Positions 11,161 to 18,489 of a stretch of DNA of 22,643 nucleotides are shown here, piece by piece. The position numbers and the translations under genes were made by a program. Source of the stretch: a virus; the IMG/VR virus record IMGVR_UViG_3300029913_000561, positions 1 to 22,643 of that record. One strand, given 5' to 3'. The notes below the pieces were generated by a model that made no database searches, was not told where the DNA came from, and was given only the letters and a program-made list of their open reading frames with translations. How positions within the stretch are numbered: the first letter of the stretch is position 1; each line of letters opens with the position of its first letter.

Positions 11161-12062
11161 GCGGCGGCCTGCCCCGTCGTCGACAGGTACGTGACGTCGA
11201 AGCCAGGCGGGATGGCAAACGCGTCGTCGATCGCATTCATCTGCAGGAGCGTGATCGCCTGGCTTGTGTTGCCGAAGATCGCGGTGCTCACCTGTGCGAT
11301 GCTCATCTGGTGCGGCACCGAGTATTTCATCGGCACGCCAGACTTGAGGGACATGCTCTGAGCGTACGCCTGGACACCCGAGACGACATCGTAGATCGCG
11401 TCAAGTACGGGCCAGTTGGCGGAGTTTTGCATGTCCGCAGAACTGTCAAGCGACTCGAAGATTCCGAGGATGCCAGACACCTGATTGCCAAGGTAGCTTC
11501 CGTACAGCGCGAGGCCGGAGACGACGCCCGAGAACTGTGCCACCAGTCCGGTGAGTTGCTGCAGGAGGGACAGAGTAAACGGCGACAGCGAAAGTCCGCC
11601 TGCCAGACTGTTTGCGCTCGCCATCGACGTCGCGATCGACTGCTGCGCGTTGTAGACGAGAAACGCCGCCGACTGATCCCCCGGGTCCTCGGTGAACGTA
11701 AATTTGGCGGTCTCGCCGTTGCGGATCTTGACGAAGTCCTGCTCGCGCGGCCAGTCGTCGCAGACGGCCATGATGGTGCCCACCATCGGGACCACAAGCG
11801 GGAACGTGAGCTGCCGCTCGAAGAGCCCGACAAGCGACCGCATCAGCCCCGTCGGCTCCGCGTAGGTCTTGAACGTGTCGAGGAACAGCGCGTGCTGTTC
11901 GATGACGTAGAGCTTCCGTCCGAGCTTTTCGATCTGCCCGCCGCCGCTATGCGGGTACTCGTGCACGTGCTTGCGCCCCGATCCCTTCACCGACTGCTTG
12001 GTGATTGGGTACTCGAAACCAGAGAAGCTCGCGCGAGGCAGGCTATCGGCAAGTTGCGGCAT
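11157..12062 (-). CDS. Mu gpN-like tail/DNA circularisation protein, N-terminal-domain type
   Basis: This 301-residue protein has the typical start of the gpN/DNA circularisation family: LPRASFSGFEYPI, then VKGSGRKHVHEYPHSGGGQIEKLGRKL (the family's HEYP...V.DLGR pattern), and a segment with helix ALFLDTFKTYAEPTG followed by a predicted strand (RQLTFPLVVPMVGTIMAV). The C-terminal half is helix-rich, and the family's usual C-terminal end with a peptidoglycan-binding repeat is not present. Mu gpN is near 490 residues, so this form is truncated at the C-terminus or reorganised. Its ATG overlaps the tape-measure stop by one base (TGATG). In Mu-like tails the protein belongs to the distal tail/hub complex and connects tube to baseplate. 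Confidence 0.82.
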   Translation of the reverse strand: MPQLADSLPRASFSGFEYPITKQSVKGSGRKHVHEYPHSGGGQIEKLGRKLYVIEQHALFLDTFKTYAEPTGLMRSLVGLFERQLTFPLVVPMVGTIMAVCDDWPREQDFVKIRNGETAKFTFTEDPGDQSAAFLVYNAQQSIATSMASANSLAGGLSLSPFTLSLLQQLTGLVAQFSGVVSGLALYGSYLGNQVSGILGIFESLDSSADMQNSANWPVLDAIYDVVSGVQAYAQSMSLKSGVPMKYSVPHQMSIAQVSTAIFGNTSQAITLLQMNAIDDAFAIPPGFDVTYLSTTGQAAA

Positions 12063-14254
12063 CAGGGGGGGAGACTCTCGGGGGTTCCGCCCGCGGTGGG
12101 CGCCGTCTTGGCTGCGGCCGTGTTCTTGGCGATGATGGTGAGCTGGGCGAGCATTTCCCTGCCATCAAGCGCCCGCAACGTGTTGGTCAGCTCCTCAAGC
12201 TTTGCCTTGTTTCGCTCGAGATCCTGCTGCTTGTTCTTGAAGGCTTCCTGTTGCTCGGCGTTCGATGACATACCATCACCGCCACCGCCTACATTGCGGA
12301 GTCCAGGAAGGCCAAGGTCGAAACCGGCCGAACCGAGGGAGCCTCGCGTCTTCGTGACCTCGGCTTGCTGCTTGTCGACGAGCGCCTGCTGTAGCGCCTG
12401 CGCCCGTTTCGCCATCTCGACTTGCTCCTCCGAGATGGTGTGATGCTCAAAACCGTTAGCGTCCGTCGTCTTCGTCGCGTTGTATGTTCTGTTCAGTCCA
12501 GCCGTGGCGTCCTGCGCCTTGCCCCGAGTGTCGGCAGACGCCCTGTCTGCGGCCGCTTCGTCGAACCCAAACATGTGCATTAGTCTTTTCGCGCCATCGG
12601 TCATCACGCCAGTGAGGCTCACCATGGCGGGCAGCATCGCGATCAGCGCGGGGCGCATTTCGTCCATCATCGTCGCCGTCGTCTCGGCCATCTTGTTGTT
12701 GAAGACCGTTACCTGAGACTCGCCCGTTTGCATCGCGAGCGCATACTTTTCCTGAATCTCCCCCGCGACCATCGTGACCGACAGGAACTCGTTGTACTTC
12801 TCGGTGACCGCAGCGAGCCCCGCCGCGTTGTCGGCCTCCGCCTCTTCCTTCGCGGATCCGTACTTCTTGTGTTTCTCTCGGTGCACAGCGCGTGACTGAT
12901 CCACGGCGGCGTTGTAATGCGCCGCGAACGCCATCACCGGAGCCCGACTGTTCACGTTGCTGAGCAGGTGCGCGATCTCGTCGCCCTTACCGTGTGTCTT
13001 CGTCAGCACGTCGCGGATGATGTCGATCGGGTCGCGCTCCTTCGTGTGGCCATTGTCCGAATAGATGTCGATCCCTGCAGCCTTGAACCGCTTTTGCGCG
13101 GTCTGTCCCATGAGGTCACGGACGAACGCCTGCGCGCTGTTCGTCGCGGTCGTTGCCGTGCCTCGCCCCCCGGTCTGCATGCTCGCTTGGGACAGCGCGC
13201 CAAGCACCGCGATGCTCTGTCCGATGTCCGTTCCGACACCAAGCTTGCCGAGAAGTGCCGCCGTCTCCTCGTTCACCTTGAAGTTGCGCGCCTGCGCGGC
13301 GAGCTTGGTCATTTGCGTGGCCATATTTCGGATCTCGATCGCGCCGACCTGGCCTTGCCCCGCGAAGACGCGCATGACCTCGGTGGCCGCCTCTCCCTTA
13401 TTCGGGATGTCGCCGAGCTGGTTTGAAATGGCGGCGGCGGCAAGCACCGTGTCGCTCATGTTCGAGCCCGTCGCCTTCGACAGGACGGCCATGTCCTTGA
13501 GGATCTTCCGTCCCGTGTCGAGGTCGCCCGTCTTCTCCGTGAACGCGATCAACCCGTCGAGCGCGTCCGTCGCACTCTGCGCGGTTTCGTTGGCGACCTG
13601 CCGCGCTTCCTTCTCGAGCTGCTTGGGGTCCACCCGCTGTCCGGCCGCGCCGTGCTCGCTCGGAATGTACGCCGAGTTCGATAGCTGTACGGCCTTGCTC
13701 TCGATCCCCATGTTCGTCCCGATATACGAGCCGAGGTCGGTATTGATTCCTGCGCCGTGCATTATGTCGCCAAGCACGCGCCCGCCAAAACTCATCGAGC
13801 TGCCGATGCCTCCAGCGATGGCGGAAGCGTGCCCGCCTAGCCGCCCGAAGGTGGATCCGGTCGAGTACTTCCCCACGCCGAGCGAGCGCTGTGCCTGATC
13901 GCGCTGCGACTTGCGCAGGATGCTGTCGATCTCTCGCTGCATCGCCTTGAAGTCGGACGCAACCGCGGAGAACCGGCGCGACGCCTCCTGGCCGAACTGA
14001 ATCGTCGACCGCGTAGCTGGGGTCAGGAGGTCGCGCCCCTTGCCAGATATCTCGCGCTCGAGATTGGCGAACGCCTTGTCGGCCGCGCTGAGTCCCTTCT
14101 TGATGCCAGCGCCGCCCGCCTTGCCGCCCGCCGTCAACTCCTCGCTGACGACGACTCGTGCACGCTTGGCCTGGCTGGTGATCGAACGAAAAACGGTGTC
14201 CCAGCTCGCGTCCTTCGCGGCCCCGACCTTCACCATCACGGTGCGAGTGGTCAC
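12062..14254 (-). CDS. Tail tape measure protein
   Basis: This 730-residue protein sits between chaperones and gpN and has the composition of a tape measure: Ala, Lys, Glu, Gln-rich helices with a Gly-rich central region. The N-terminal ~130 residues form helical coiled-coil-like sequence (SWDTVFRSITSQAK, RRFSAVASDFKAMQREIDSI); residues ~133-185 are Gly/Ser-rich with hydrophobic patches (AIAGGIGSSMSFGG); residues ~210-430 fit the phage tape-measure minor-tail core (for example SDTVLAAAAISNQLGD, AFVRDLMGQTAQKRF); residues ~560-600 include a hydrophobic stretch (ALIAMLPAMVSLTG); the end (620-720) is again coiled coil. The GTG start has AAGG five bases upstream. Using the usual rule of ~0.15 nm per residue, the tail would be about 110 nm long (inference). 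Confidence 0.9.
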   Translation of the reverse strand: MTTRTVMVKVGAAKDASWDTVFRSITSQAKRARVVVSEELTAGGKAGGAGIKKGLSAADKAFANLEREISGKGRDLLTPATRSTIQFGQEASRRFSAVASDFKAMQREIDSILRKSQRDQAQRSLGVGKYSTGSTFGRLGGHASAIAGGIGSSMSFGGRVLGDIMHGAGINTDLGSYIGTNMGIESKAVQLSNSAYIPSEHGAAGQRVDPKQLEKEARQVANETAQSATDALDGLIAFTEKTGDLDTGRKILKDMAVLSKATGSNMSDTVLAAAAISNQLGDIPNKGEAATEVMRVFAGQGQVGAIEIRNMATQMTKLAAQARNFKVNEETAALLGKLGVGTDIGQSIAVLGALSQASMQTGGRGTATTATNSAQAFVRDLMGQTAQKRFKAAGIDIYSDNGHTKERDPIDIIRDVLTKTHGKGDEIAHLLSNVNSRAPVMAFAAHYNAAVDQSRAVHREKHKKYGSAKEEAEADNAAGLAAVTEKYNEFLSVTMVAGEIQEKYALAMQTGESQVTVFNNKMAETTATMMDEMRPALIAMLPAMVSLTGVMTDGAKRLMHMFGFDEAAADRASADTRGKAQDATAGLNRTYNATKTTDANGFEHHTISEEQVEMAKRAQALQQALVDKQQAEVTKTRGSLGSAGFDLGLPGLRNVGGGGDGMSSNAEQQEAFKNKQQDLERNKAKLEELTNTLRALDGREMLAQLTIIAKNTAAAKTAPTAGGTPESLPP

Positions 14255-14283: not shown

Positions 14284-14673
14284 ATGATGCACGTGCTTAC
14301 CTGCCTGCTCCTCTGGCTCAACCCAAACCCCCGAGACGTCTACCGACTCGTTGAGCTGGTCGACATTGCCCAACAGATCGTGTCGACAGATGCCGACGAA
14401 GCCGAAGGCGAAACATTGGCTGCTGTTGCAATCCACGAGACCGGCGCCCGCATCTTTCGACATGGCACGCACAGCCTCGTCACCGATGGGCGCGGCGCGT
14501 TCGGCCCATGGCAGGTTGTGGGAGGCCCACCAACGGCTGCCGAGGCTCTCCGGCGCGTCCGCTGGAGCGTCGGACTTTGCGGAGACTTGAGCCTCTACGC
14601 TGGTTGCGGTCGTTGCGGCGCCTGCCCCGACATCGCCAGCTCGCTTTGGGACCCGACACTCCCTCGCCGCTGA
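14284..14673 (+). CDS. Lysozyme/lytic transglycosylase-like protein, opposite strand
   Basis: This is the only credible plus-strand gene. Its 129-residue product has a short hydrophobic N-terminus, then TLAAVAIHETGARI (catalytic-type Glu52), GRGAFGPWQV (71-78; the GLMQ/GAWQ step of transglycosylase-fold enzymes), EALRRVRWSVGLCG, then YAGCGRCGACP and an end DPTLPRR. The order Glu-helix, Gly-x-x-Q, substrate helix and cysteine-rich YAxGxC end matches small peptidoglycan-cleaving domains seen in phages and GC-rich genomes. The start may be this ATG, the next codon (also ATG), or GTG 14293; no good ribosome site or promoter is visible. It sits between a minus-strand chaperone and the tape measure, with its start 29 bases from the divergent tape-measure start. 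A rival minus-strand frame covers the same bases. Confidence 0.6.
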   Translation: MMHVLTCLLLWLNPNPRDVYRLVELVDIAQQIVSTDADEAEGETLAAVAIHETGARIFRHGTHSLVTDGRGAFGPWQVVGGPPTAAEALRRVRWSVGLCGDLSLYAGCGRCGACPDIASSLWDPTLPRR

Positions 14674-14725: not shown

Positions 14726-15274
14726 CTACTCTACCAAGCGTAGGTCCGTAAGCACCGAGCGCAGGAGCCGACGCACGCGCCTCGCGTAGCTCGTCGTGAG
14801 CCCGTTCAGCCTGTCCGCTTCGAGGAGCGCGATCAGCTCCCCAACCTCTTCGTCCTCGAGCGCAGCGTCGAGCGGCGAGGTCTCGAGGAGCATCGTCTCG
14901 TACCGCTCCCAGATGAGCTGCACGCCTTGCGACGTGAGCGCATCACGCACCGTGTCCTGGGCGAACGCGAAGAAGTCGCGCGACAGGTCGGACGGGTGGC
15001 ACGCAGCGCACGAGATGATCCAGCGCATCAAAAAGTCGTTGTACGATTCGATCTGCAGCTCCCCCGGCGTCGGGTGCATCTCCACGGCCCACTTCGCCGC
15101 TTCCGCGCGTGCGGTTTCCTCAACGCCCATGGCGACGTGGCGCAGCCCCATGAGGACTGGCGCATTCGGGCGGCCCTTCCACGTCTCCGCAAACGCCTCA
15201 AGCGGCAGGAGCACCTGCGCGGGTGGAGGGAGCGGCTCCTCGATCGGGGTGAAGGCGCCCACGCTACGACTCAC
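14726..15274 (-). CDS. Putative tail assembly chaperone (second gene, 182 aa)
   Basis: Function is inferred from position between the G-type chaperone gene and the tape measure. The 182-residue protein has a Pro-rich N-terminus, a helical middle (APVLMGLRHVAMGVEETARAEA; LQIESYNDFLMRWI), and an acidic-to-basic C-terminus (ALEDEEVGELIALLEADRL, then ARRVRRLLRSVL). Helical, acidic proteins at this place in Mu-like and lambda-like phages wrap or guide the tape measure. The start is a GTG at 15274 whose bases GTGA include the stop of the -1 frame of the upstream gene; relative to the normal upstream frame the overlap is 11 bases. No enzyme motif was found. Whether it is a genuine chaperone or an unrelated tail factor is open. 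Confidence 0.65.
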   Translation of the reverse strand: MSRSVGAFTPIEEPLPPPAQVLLPLEAFAETWKGRPNAPVLMGLRHVAMGVEETARAEAAKWAVEMHPTPGELQIESYNDFLMRWIISCAACHPSDLSRDFFAFAQDTVRDALTSQGVQLIWERYETMLLETSPLDAALEDEEVGELIALLEADRLNGLTTSYARRVRRLLRSVLTDLRLVE

Positions 15275-15920
15275 CTGAGCCTGGCGATGGCGTCTCGTCC
15301 GGCCTGATCGAGGGCTGCGTCGTCGAGGGTGCGGGGCGCGGCGGTGGCTGCGGCAGGCTTGGAGGGCTTGGAGTGCTCAGAGAGGTGCCACCAGAGCCAG
15401 AACTGAGCCTCAGAAAGTCGACAAGCAGGCGTGCCGTAGTACGCACAAAGATCCACCGCAAACCTGGCCGCATATCGACGAAAGGGTCCGGTGAATCGGC
15501 ACCTGCAATCGCTCGTAGCTGCGTGTGGAACTCGCCGTCACTGAGGCGCAGCCGGGACGGAACGCACTGATCCTCGTAGTGCTCTTGCAGCTCGTTCAGG
15601 TAGACGATGCGCTCCGCGCCGATCCGACGATCCTTGAGGATCGCCTCCGCCCCCATCGGGAAGAACGGCGCGCTCGTGTTGTCCGGGTCGACGAAGGACA
15701 GCACAACACGCTTGGCAAGCCGCCCGCGCTCTTCGAGGTCTGCGTCGCCTGGGTACCCCAGCCCCTTCGCGTACGACTTGCCGAACGTCTCCGCCTCCGC
15801 GTCCTCGGCGGACGAGAGCGGACGGTACGCGACGCGCACGCGGATCTCGTTGCGCAGCTCGACCTCCCGAGGCGCAGAGTATTGCTCGGTGCCAGCTACG
15901 ACAGAATCGAACGTGGGCAT
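15264..15920 (-). CDS. Putative tail assembly chaperone (G-type), possible frameshifting gene
   Basis: This 218-residue protein directly follows the tail tube and precedes the second chaperone and tape measure, the standard position of gpG-type tail chaperones (Mu gp41). Residues ~20-145 are acidic/helical with a mixed first sheet (ELRNEIRVRVAYRPL, LSFVDPDN, RIVYLNELQEHYEDQ). Residue 147 (Phe) lies on a slippery CCCTTTC. After it the normal frame gives a helix and then a Ser/Thr/Pro-rich tail (about 185-218), while the -1 frame gives a more ordered, Trp/Ala-rich helical tail. The ATG at 15920 lies right behind a small inverted repeat. Length with a -1 shift would be 216, so the two products would have different C-termini of almost the same size. 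Confidence 0.68.
   Translation of the reverse strand: MPTFDSVVAGTEQYSAPREVELRNEIRVRVAYRPLSSAEDAEAETFGKSYAKGLGYPGDADLEERGRLAKRVVLSFVDPDNTSAPFFPMGAEAILKDRRIGAERIVYLNELQEHYEDQCVPSRLRLSDGEFHTQLRAIAGADSPDPFVDMRPGLRWIFVRTTARLLVDFLRLSSGSGGTSLSTPSPPSLPQPPPRPAPSTTQPSIRPDETPSPGSGES
15271..15479 (-). other. -1 frame extension of the tail chaperone (candidate frameshift product end)
   Basis: After a -1 slip on CCCTTTC the ribosome would read 69 codons to a TGA at 15271. The peptide begins RRYAARFAVDLCAYYG and continues with a helical, Trp-containing part (SEAQFWLWWHLSEHS) and an Ala-rich, charged end (LDDAALDQAGRDAIARLR). It looks like folded protein rather than a random frame, and its stop shares GTGA with the start of the next gene, a junction type used repeatedly in this operon. 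The frame is closed upstream by a TGA around the codon pair for Ser127-Asp128 of the normal frame, so it cannot be an independent long gene, though a GTG at 15456 exists. Confidence 0.42.
15480..15486 (-). promoter_or_regulatory. Candidate -1 ribosomal slippery heptamer CCCTTTC
   Basis: In the chaperone frame the bases read ..C CCT TTC.., an exact X XXY YYZ arrangement. Slipping back one base keeps pairing at CCC (Pro) and TTT (Phe). It sits about two thirds into the gene before the tape measure, where programmed frameshifts are known in many phages. No convincing stimulatory pseudoknot was seen by eye; GTCGA just downstream can pair with TCGAC about 55 bases later, which is weak support. Confidence 0.45.
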
Positions 15921-15950: not shown

Positions 15951-16331
15951 TCAGACAGTAGGATTCGGACTCGGACTCGCGCCGATGAACTTCCAGTTGC
16001 CATCGCACGACCCTTTGGCCACGTCCCACTTGACGTTGGCGCCCGAGATGATGCCCTCGAACGTGACGAAGCCGGCGTCCACGTAGAGCTGGACGGAGAC
16101 CTGCGTCTGGTTGATCGACATGGCGAGTAGGGACGTCTTCATCCCGGCCACCGGCATGATGGTGTCCAGGTCGACTTCGCATGTGACCACGCCGCACGAG
16201 ATGCCCGTCTCGTCCTGTGCTGGCTCTAGCGCGACGTTGGGATTGATCTGGAAGCTGCCGCTCTTGCCCTCGCCAATCTTGGCGGAGCCGACGTAGACCG
16301 GGACCGGCCGAAGGATGGGGTTTGCTGCCAT
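15951..16331 (-). CDS. Tail tube protein
   Basis: This 126-residue protein directly follows the sheath, the universal place of the contractile tail tube gene, and has the right size. It shows an N-terminal arm (ILRPVPVYVGSAKIGEG) and alternating strands (GSFQINPNVAL; GVVTCEVDLDTIMPV; VSVQLYVDAGFVTFEG), ending with NVKWDVAKGSCDGNWKFIG, a hallmark layout of Mu gpM-like tubes in which the last strands close the tube ring. The ATG is preceded by a good TGAGG site that overlaps the sheath stop. It should polymerise around the tape measure and be surrounded by the sheath. Confidence 0.82.
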   Translation of the reverse strand: MAANPILRPVPVYVGSAKIGEGKSGSFQINPNVALEPAQDETGISCGVVTCEVDLDTIMPVAGMKTSLLAMSINQTQVSVQLYVDAGFVTFEGIISGANVKWDVAKGSCDGNWKFIGASPSPNPTV

Positions 16332-16339
16332 GGTCTACC

Positions 16340-17896
16340 TCAGAGGGTTTGCGCGGTGGGGGCGGGGTACGGCGAGCCGAGCTGTCGAACGCTGTTGCCG
16401 TACTGGTGGTTCCCGGGCGACACGGGGCACGGGAAGACCGACTCCATGCGCCGGGCCGTGGCGTTGAAGCCCGCGACCGGAAGGTTCTGCGCGACGTTCA
16501 CGAACCAGCCCTTGAGCTGATACTCGACGGCAATGCCGACGAGCCACGCCGTCGCCTGCTTGGGCACCCACACGCCGGCCGGGGGCTGCGGCTGACCGAC
16601 CGCGACATCGTCCGCCACGCGCGGATTGTTGGGCTTGATCGAGCTGATCCAGCGGAGCCCGATGTCACCACGCGCGTAGTCCGGCATGGTGACGTAGTAC
16701 GTCTGCAGGCATCGGTAGTCTGCCCCGGCCCCGAAGAGCGAGTACGTGGTGATCAGCATGCCGATCGTGGCCTGCCCGTTCACCGTGACCAATGGGGTGA
16801 CGCTGTTTTGCAGCGCAGAGACCTGCTGCGCGTGCGTCGGCACGTCCGCGATGAAGCGATTGGGCACGACCCACGGCATCGCCACGCCGTCGTAGTACGC
16901 GACAGGGTTCGCCCCCTCGGTGACCGATCGGAGCGCCGCCATGCCGGCCACGACGGTCGCGTTGTGCGATTCGCCGTCGTTCATCCAGAGGCAGCTTGCG
17001 CGGTACTCGTTGAGTGTGGTCTGGGCGAGGGAGGTCGCGGCGGCGAGCGTGCCATTCTGCGCGAACATGAACTGCTCGAGCCGGCCCTCCGTGATCGCAG
17101 CCTTGCCCTCGACCTGCGTCTTCATCGCGGTGAGGCTGACCGTGTCCACCGCCGCGATGGCGATGTAGTCCCACGTGCCTGGCCAGAGCGCCGTCAATAG
17201 CGTAGTCATCAGCTCGGCCGTGCCAGTGCCCGCCGTGGGGCGAACGCCGGTCAGGCCATTGGTGCTTGTGAGCGAGGAGGACGAGCCGGTGAACGTGCCA
17301 GTGAGCCACGCGGGCGCCTGGGTCATGTCGAGATAGATCGAGTGGTCAGCCGTACGAGATCCGAGGTCGACGGTAGACAGCACGACGACACCAGCGGTCG
17401 GTGCGGCCGTCATCGGGCATCGCGGATTGCCAGCCATCGCGGCCTGCATCGCCACACCGATCTGCGTCAGCGTCATCGACGGCGTAACGCCGAAGGAGTA
17501 TCGGGTCCCGTCGATGTAGAAGACGACGTTTCCGGTCACGGCAGATGTAGTGCCAGTCCACGTCAGCGTGACCGTTCCTGCAGTCGGCGACCCCGTCGCC
17601 TTGAGGATGGGCGCGGCGTAGACGTTTGCGCCTGGCACGCTGAGCGCGGCCACGCACATGACGTTCAGCTCGGAGCCGGGACCATGGAACCCGTCCGTGT
17701 CCGCGGGCGAGTAGATCCGGTTGATGTCCTGGTTCGGCGTTGCCGTCCCGGCAGTGCCCTGCAGGCCGATCATGAGCGCCTTCTTCGTCAGGCTGCCCGC
17801 AGAGATTGTACCCTGCGCGAAAAGCGACTCTGCGTACGCGCCCGGGACGAAGTCAGTGTTGCCCCAGCCGACGAACTGATTGACAGGAGATGTCAC
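16340..17896 (-). CDS. Contractile tail sheath protein, Mu gpL-like
   Basis: This 518-residue protein has the features of gpL-type sheath proteins: an N-terminal FVPGAYAE segment after ~15 residues; a first domain with strands (KKALMIGLQGTAG); a beta-rich insertion (about 95-205, with GTVTLTWTG and NVVFYIDG); the core helix-strand region TWDYIAIAAVDTVSLTAMKTQVEGKA; then MAALRSVTEGANPVAYYDGVAMP; and the conserved C-terminal domain (ITTYSLFGAGADYRCLQTYYVTMPDYARGDIGLRW, then AVEYQLKGWFVNVAQNLPV). Its GTG start shares GTGA with the gp38-position gene. Contraction of this sheath drives the tube through the envelope. Its presence defines the virus as a myovirus-type phage. Confidence 0.9.
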   Translation of the reverse strand: MTSPVNQFVGWGNTDFVPGAYAESLFAQGTISAGSLTKKALMIGLQGTAGTATPNQDINRIYSPADTDGFHGPGSELNVMCVAALSVPGANVYAAPILKATGSPTAGTVTLTWTGTTSAVTGNVVFYIDGTRYSFGVTPSMTLTQIGVAMQAAMAGNPRCPMTAAPTAGVVVLSTVDLGSRTADHSIYLDMTQAPAWLTGTFTGSSSSLTSTNGLTGVRPTAGTGTAELMTTLLTALWPGTWDYIAIAAVDTVSLTAMKTQVEGKAAITEGRLEQFMFAQNGTLAAATSLAQTTLNEYRASCLWMNDGESHNATVVAGMAALRSVTEGANPVAYYDGVAMPWVVPNRFIADVPTHAQQVSALQNSVTPLVTVNGQATIGMLITTYSLFGAGADYRCLQTYYVTMPDYARGDIGLRWISSIKPNNPRVADDVAVGQPQPPAGVWVPKQATAWLVGIAVEYQLKGWFVNVAQNLPVAGFNATARRMESVFPCPVSPGNHQYGNSVRQLGSPYPAPTAQTL

Positions 17897-18489
17897 GAAG
17901 TCACCGCCTTAGCGGGTGGGATGGGTGCGGGCGGGGGGAGAGTCGGCGTGGCCGATGGTAGCGGCGCGGGCGGCGCAGGCGGCGCGATGGGCGCAGGCGG
18001 CGCGATGGGCGCAGGCGGCGCGATGGGCGTGGGGAAGATGGGGCACGGGTCGGAGGCCCAAGCGGGCTCCTTGCCGTGGGTGGCGATGTGCTTGGCGAGC
18101 GCCTTGGCGCGGTGCGCGGCCATCAGCTCCTTGGGGTCCGTAAACGGAAGGGACAGCTCGTCAGCAGTCTCCTGGTCGGCCGCGATGAGGTCACCACAGC
18201 GGACAGCGCGAAGGTAGTATCCGTCCGGTGTCGCCGCGACCTCTTCAGGCTCCTGCGAGAACGTCCACACTGTGTCCTGGATCGTCGGGGTGTTCGCGAC
18301 GTTGACCGCGATACCCTTCTTGATCTGCGGCGTGGCGAGAGGGTTCTCCTTCACCGTCGTGGCTGCCCCCACGCTCGCGCCAACCTTGCGCGTGCCGGTC
18401 AGAATGCCAGGCGACGGGTAGATCGGGCAAGTGCCAGCGAGGCGGCCCTTGTGGTCGGTGTGCACGTACGGATTGGCGTAGAGCTTCAT
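17893..18489 (-). CDS. Mu gp38-position protein (DUF2635-like) with proline-rich tail
   Basis: This 198-residue protein lies right before the sheath, where Mu-like phages have gp38 (DUF2635). The region TPDGYYLRAVRCGDLI (88-102) resembles the conserved W/Y-x-R-R...G-D-x-V end of that family. The rest of the N-terminal part contains Thr/Asn/Val-rich strands. The C-terminal ~48 residues are Pro/Ala-rich, with three perfect PIAPPA hexapeptides (155-172). DUF2635 proteins are usually much shorter (under 100 aa), so the Pro-rich tail is an addition. The start ATG shares ATGA with the terminator-position gene and the end shares GTGA with the sheath, so the three are coupled. Function in the family is unknown, probably tail assembly. 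Confidence 0.6.
   Translation of the reverse strand: MKLYANPYVHTDHKGRLAGTCPIYPSPGILTGTRKVGASVGAATTVKENPLATPQIKKGIAVNVANTPTIQDTVWTFSQEPEEVAATPDGYYLRAVRCGDLIAADQETADELSLPFTDPKELMAAHRAKALAKHIATHGKEPAWASDPCPIFPTPIAPPAPIAPPAPIAPPAPPAPLPSATPTLPPPAPIPPAKAVTS
17973..18026. repeat. Three perfect 18-bp tandem repeats
   Basis: The unit GCGCAGGCGGCGCGATGG occurs three times head to tail with no mismatch. The repeat is in frame (six codons), so copy-number change by slippage would only add or remove PIAPPA units in the encoded protein. Similar but imperfect GC-rich sequence continues on both sides. Confidence 0.9.

Follow-up and report, generated by a model that had tools for sequence, protein, structure and literature searches.

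A predicted tail gene on the minus strand of IMG/VR virus record IMGVR_UViG_3300029913_000561 (positions 1 to 22,643, referred to here as the window) contains a slippery heptamer followed by an open -1 frame, which raises the question of whether one gene supplies two versions of a tail assembly chaperone. It very probably does (probability of about 0.9), through a -1 slip at CCCTTTC. The features on which this reading depends are as follows.

12062..14254 (-), tape measure protein (PHROG 1272, E 4.2e-4; Pfam PhageMin_Tail, E 2e-12)
14726..15274 (-), gene X (182 aa), distantly paralogous to the N-domain of the chaperone; begins with a GTG that overlaps the -1 stop
15264..15920 (-), tail assembly chaperone gene, 0-frame product of 218 aa, assigned from the ORF, its position between tube and tape measure and its syntenic homologues
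15480..15486 (-), slippery heptamer C CCT TTC at Pro146-Phe147, identified from the sequence, its conservation in relatives and decoding rules
15271..15480 (-), tail in the -1 frame (69 codons plus TGA), with a conserved T-like domain (RRYAARFAVDLCAYYGTPACRLSEAQFWLWWHL...) that is always in the -1 frame in the 11 other distinct loci
15264..15479 (-), 0-frame tail, 71 codons plus TAG, variable and Ser/Pro/Thr-rich, starting with an RPGLRWIF-type motif
15951..16331 (-), tail tube protein, assigned by position and synteny; its homologue in relatives is the ORF that separates the sheath gene from the chaperone gene
16340..17896 (-), tail sheath protein (PHROG 165, E 4.5e-38)

The heptamer (GAAAGGG at 15480-15486 on the plus strand) is in the phase X XXY YYZ. 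This placement, and a -1 frame open for 69 codons up to a TGA that overlaps the GTG start of gene X as GTGA, had been reported in the preliminary description of this DNA, and both are confirmed from the sequence. The -1 product comprises 216 aa, and FAVDLCAYYGTPACR is an example of a peptide encoded by the -1 frame. Taken alone, the heptamer and open -1 frame of the window are compatible with chance and argue only weakly for frameshifting. Control tail genes from six contigs (~39.8 kb) contain 14 in-frame X XXY YYZ sites in which Z is not G, i.e., at ~0.1% of codons, so that ~0.2 would be expected per gene of the chaperone's length, and at a GC content of 65% an open -1 frame is common. What raises the heptamer above chance is the conservation of both the site and the -1 peptide, together with the fact that CCT is a minor Pro codon.

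Established decoding rules allow tRNA-Pro and tRNA-Phe to re-pair on CCC UUU. On the favored reading, programmed -1 ribosomal frameshifting would generate two chaperone forms from one start. Most ribosomes would read on through CCU UUC to the 218-aa 0-frame form, and a minority would slip back one base at C CCU UUC, with both tRNAs re-pairing, to make the 216-aa form, which would end in a conserved 30- to 35-residue T-like domain that is Trp/Tyr-rich and probably helical. If lambda G/GT is taken as the model, the N-domain common to both forms would coat the tape measure, and recruitment of tube subunits would fall to the -1 domain. Reporter frameshift rates of two other phage tail chaperones are 6 to 7% (PMC3711429).

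Heptamer and -1 domain in relatives

The 0-frame protein matched only a near-identical contig, IMGVR_UViG_3300029911_000848, and no chaperone homologues were found in genome contigs or GenBank phages. Searching with the -1 tail retrieved L006, and a DNA pattern combined with tail alignments retrieved L030/L012, L038, L042, L043, L050, L051, L052, L053, L055, and L058. L012 equals L030 over 4643 bases, and the total is 12 distinct loci from viral contigs, including the window. Matches of the DNA pattern were mostly due to chance, the real ones being L012, L013, L016, and L030. The L007 match, confined to the extreme C-terminus, is unrelated and due to chance, and homeodomain matches of the -1 profile were short and attributable to chance.

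In every one of the 12 distinct loci, a chaperone-like ORF runs into the tail domain (consensus PFRxxAARFAVDLxAYYGxPxxELTxxQ) from upstream, and the domain is in the -1 frame of that ORF, most relatives having been retrieved with the tail peptide alone. A full slip heptamer marks the boundary of the domain in 11 of the 12. It is CCCTTTC in seven loci (window, L006, L030, L042, L053, L055, and L058), CCCTTTA in L038, TTTTTTC in L052, and an A run (A AAA AAG or A AAA AAC) in L043 and L051. The exception is L050, where GCTTTTA (G CTT TTA, L050:4977-4983) permits A-site re-pairing only and the -1 domain is still conserved; slippage there may occur at U UUA alone.

Conservation at the boundary extends to codon choice. 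Ahead of the site, coding is in the 0 frame; even so, the Pro codon is CCT in all five CCCTTT-type loci tested, in which CCT makes up 10 to 18% of Pro codons (joint chance, 3.5e-5). In L038, the Leu codon at the site is TTA, which preserves CCC TTT, and TTA accounts for none of 101 Leu codons in the control genes of that locus. In L006, a -1 frame stop abuts the heptamer. When 0-frame peptides were fixed and synonymous codons were resampled, the conservation score of the -1 frame (SP) was 2667, versus 230 ± 137 expected (z 17.8), and the test was also run in reverse (see below). The predicted frameshift is thus conserved in distant relatives. The programmed -1 shift proposed in the preliminary description gains support from the conserved heptamer and -1 peptide: comparison with homologues reveals a -1 C-terminus far more conserved than the 0-frame end, and at the boundary the relatives have retained CCCTTT[C/A] or some other slippery run.

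Downstream RNA structure showed no covariation across loci, and single folds did not exceed those of shuffled sequences except in L050, so slippage would depend either on the heptamer by itself or on a stimulator that escaped detection. A Shine-Dalgarno-like GGAGGTGG located 16 to 22 nt upstream in several relatives was rejected as a candidate; it is missing from the window and L006, and the residues it encodes are conserved.

The gene order neck-terminator-sheath-tube-chaperone-X-tape measure-hub of the window is shared by most relatives, as far as their contigs extend. L043 contains the sheath, chaperone, tape measure, and hub genes, and only the tape measure confirms the context in L051. 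The tail tube ORF of the window (15951..16331) has no family match among PHROG and Pfam profiles. Gene X encodes another chaperone-like protein, one that lacks the -1 domain, and its profile matches that of the chaperone (A8 versus A10; hhalign profile-profile probability, 97.4; E 1.5e-11). It follows the chaperone gene in nine relatives and was not seen in L043 and L051.

Two further observations concern this neighborhood. An ORF on the opposite strand (14284-14673, +) separates gene X from the tape measure gene and encodes 129 aa (VAIHETG...FGPWQVVG...) that appear transglycosylase-like by eye and have no Pfam match; L042, L030, and L038 likewise have opposite-strand ORFs between X and the tape measure. 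An 18-bp tandem repeat at 17961-18029 encodes a Pro/Ala/Ile repeat within the gene at 17893-18489 (-), and the near-identical contig has 36 bp more at this repeat.

The 0-frame tail

The 0 frame of CCCTTT-type loci remains open over 46 to 71 codons and ends within ~20 bases of the -1 stop. The lengths of the two products differ by ≤13 residues in nine relatives. The near-equal lengths noted earlier for the window are therefore common to CCCTTT-type relatives but do not extend to the more distant L043 and L051, in which 0-frame tails of 26 and 32 codons accompany -1 tails of 91 and 65 codons. Both layouts, near-equal and shorter 0/longer -1, consequently exist with one homologous -1 domain.

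The 0 frame is open in eight lineages, counted as one per clade and with L052 counted to its codon 49, and the joint probability of this is ~4e-4 under synonymous resampling given the -1 peptides. In the reverse conservation test (-1 peptides fixed), extra 0-frame conservation has a z of 6.0, compared with 3.2 to 3.4 in a single-coding control block of the same genes, which measures shared ancestry plus codon bias; the extra conservation is concentrated in codons 1 to 13. In addition, the 0-frame stop and the start of the next gene share bases (ATGA, TGATG, or TAGTG) in L006, L038, L042, L053, and L058, whereas that start is overlapped by the -1 stop in the window, L050, and L052. These overlaps make translational coupling the simplest reason for the open 0 frame, which is probably retained to keep the next gene coupled. 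Perhaps it also preserves a functional 0-frame C-terminus, and the pattern of codon conservation is suggestive of dual coding in this tail.

Frameshifting might accordingly be a means of swapping functional C-termini over ~45 to 70 dual-coding codons, with both ends selected, rather than of adding a domain; we advance this tentatively, at somewhat less than even odds. The 0-frame end in question consists of the conserved RPGLRWIFMRT-type start followed by a low-complexity tail, and the -1 end of the T-like domain. A simpler view, which is compatible with frameshifting, is that only the -1 form needs its tail and that the 0-frame tail is passive, in a frame that high GC happens to leave open. 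At a single locus, an open 0 frame does have a probability of 0.2 to 0.5, and 0-frame tails diverge strongly after ~15 codons. Passivity is nevertheless rather unlikely given the joint probability over the eight lineages, the excess of 0-frame conservation over the control block, and the stop/start overlaps in five relatives.

Other possible sources of the -1 domain

Three explanations dispense with ribosomal frameshifting. The -1 domain could be a separate small protein that is started internally, for example, at the GTG at 15456, which opens an ORF in the -1 frame of the window (15271..15456). Conservation, however, begins at the heptamer, 10 codons ahead of this GTG; the -1 ORFs of L038, L050, and L043 are without any ATG, GTG, or TTG; and an internal start leaves the conserved heptamer unexplained. 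Such a protein is very unlikely.

The preliminary description regarded a single-base assembly error as the main alternative to programmed frameshifting. If one base were wrong through assembly or sequencing, or if the gene had been inactivated by a genuine frameshift, the -1 fusion would be the only true protein, in keeping with the better conservation of the -1 C-terminus. Against this, the 9.7-kb alignment of IMGVR_UViG_3300029911_000848 with the window shows 8 SNPs and a 36-bp repeat difference, none of them in the chaperone gene. The chaperone locus is identical in this SNP-distinct contig, so an error peculiar to one assembly does not explain the site. Furthermore, all 12 loci share the same offset, the junction carries a slip heptamer in 11 of them, and an error would have no reason to recur at CCCTTT as well as at heptamers that differ in composition. 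Error or inactivation is consequently disfavored and highly improbable.

Transcriptional rather than ribosomal slippage, for which the nine-A runs of L043 and L051 would be suitable, is just as improbable, since CCCTTT is the sequence in 8 of the 12 loci and the homopolymers of CCCTTTC, at ≤3 bases, fall short of the long runs that characterize that process.

Comparison with known tail chaperones

The gpG/gpGT chaperone frameshift of lambda is described as conserved in long-tailed phages (Xu, Hendrix, and Duda 2004, as reviewed in PMC5009743), and the same review assigns tape measure binding to the N-domain and binding of tube subunits to the T domain. As in lambda, the gene in the window lies between the major tail (tube) protein and tape measure genes, an in-frame slippery heptamer for a -1 shift is located in its 3′ part with an open shifted frame, and a shared N-domain is joined to a different end domain from the -1 frame. 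Slip site and shifted-frame domain are both kept in relatives. The window differs from lambda in its slip site, which is C CCT TTC, in the presence of a chaperone-like paralogue (X) that intervenes between the chaperone and tape measure genes, and in lacking detectable similarity to named families: profile comparisons of the chaperone with Pfam, PHROGs, and NCBIfam gave no significant match, and it is therefore not filed under any named sequence family. Lambda makes a short G and a long GT, whereas the 0-frame product of the window is as long as the -1 product.

In P2-type E/E+E′ systems, a contractile-tail phage uses a -1 shift between the tube and tape measure genes, and the shifted form is clearly longer. 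The uncultured phage of the window is likewise contractile-tailed, with its predicted -1 shift between tube and tape measure, but its predicted products are about equal in length and no sequence match to the P2 system was found. A clearly longer shifted product is typical of lambda and P2 rather than defining; among the loci compared here, it is found only in L043 and L051 and not in the window. Frameshift efficiency is given as 2- to 3-fold higher in P2 relatives in the review cited above (PMC5009743).

The shift in Mu is reported as -2 (PMC4378225, citing Xu 2004). The nearest annotated phage matches of the relatives' tail proteins are the Mu-like sheath gpL and tail protein gpP; the shift predicted for the window, by contrast, is -1, and the chaperone genes show no match. 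In the D3112-like phage PaMx73, T TTT TTC in ORF35/36 lies 43 codons upstream of the 0-frame stop and a fusion to the downstream ORF is predicted (PMC4378225). The slip site is similarly well upstream of the 0-frame stop in the window, and T TTT TTC is also present in L052. PaMx73 differs in the predicted fusion to a downstream ORF, whereas frames of the window type overlap along almost the whole of their tails.

The present analysis would widen the range of the tail chaperone frameshift to include a phage group in which the chaperone matches no named family in the libraries searched. Single-frame gene callers end such chaperones in the wrong frame or leave them incomplete, and the conserved -1 domain together with the heptamer provides a practical handle for their annotation. 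In addition, C CCT TTC recurs across loci in a layout giving two near-equal products, which separates the proposal that the T form works by length from the proposal that it works by domain. Judged by its sequence and gene context, the putative frameshift is a divergent variant of the known G/GT tail chaperone frameshift and is predicted to function like it.
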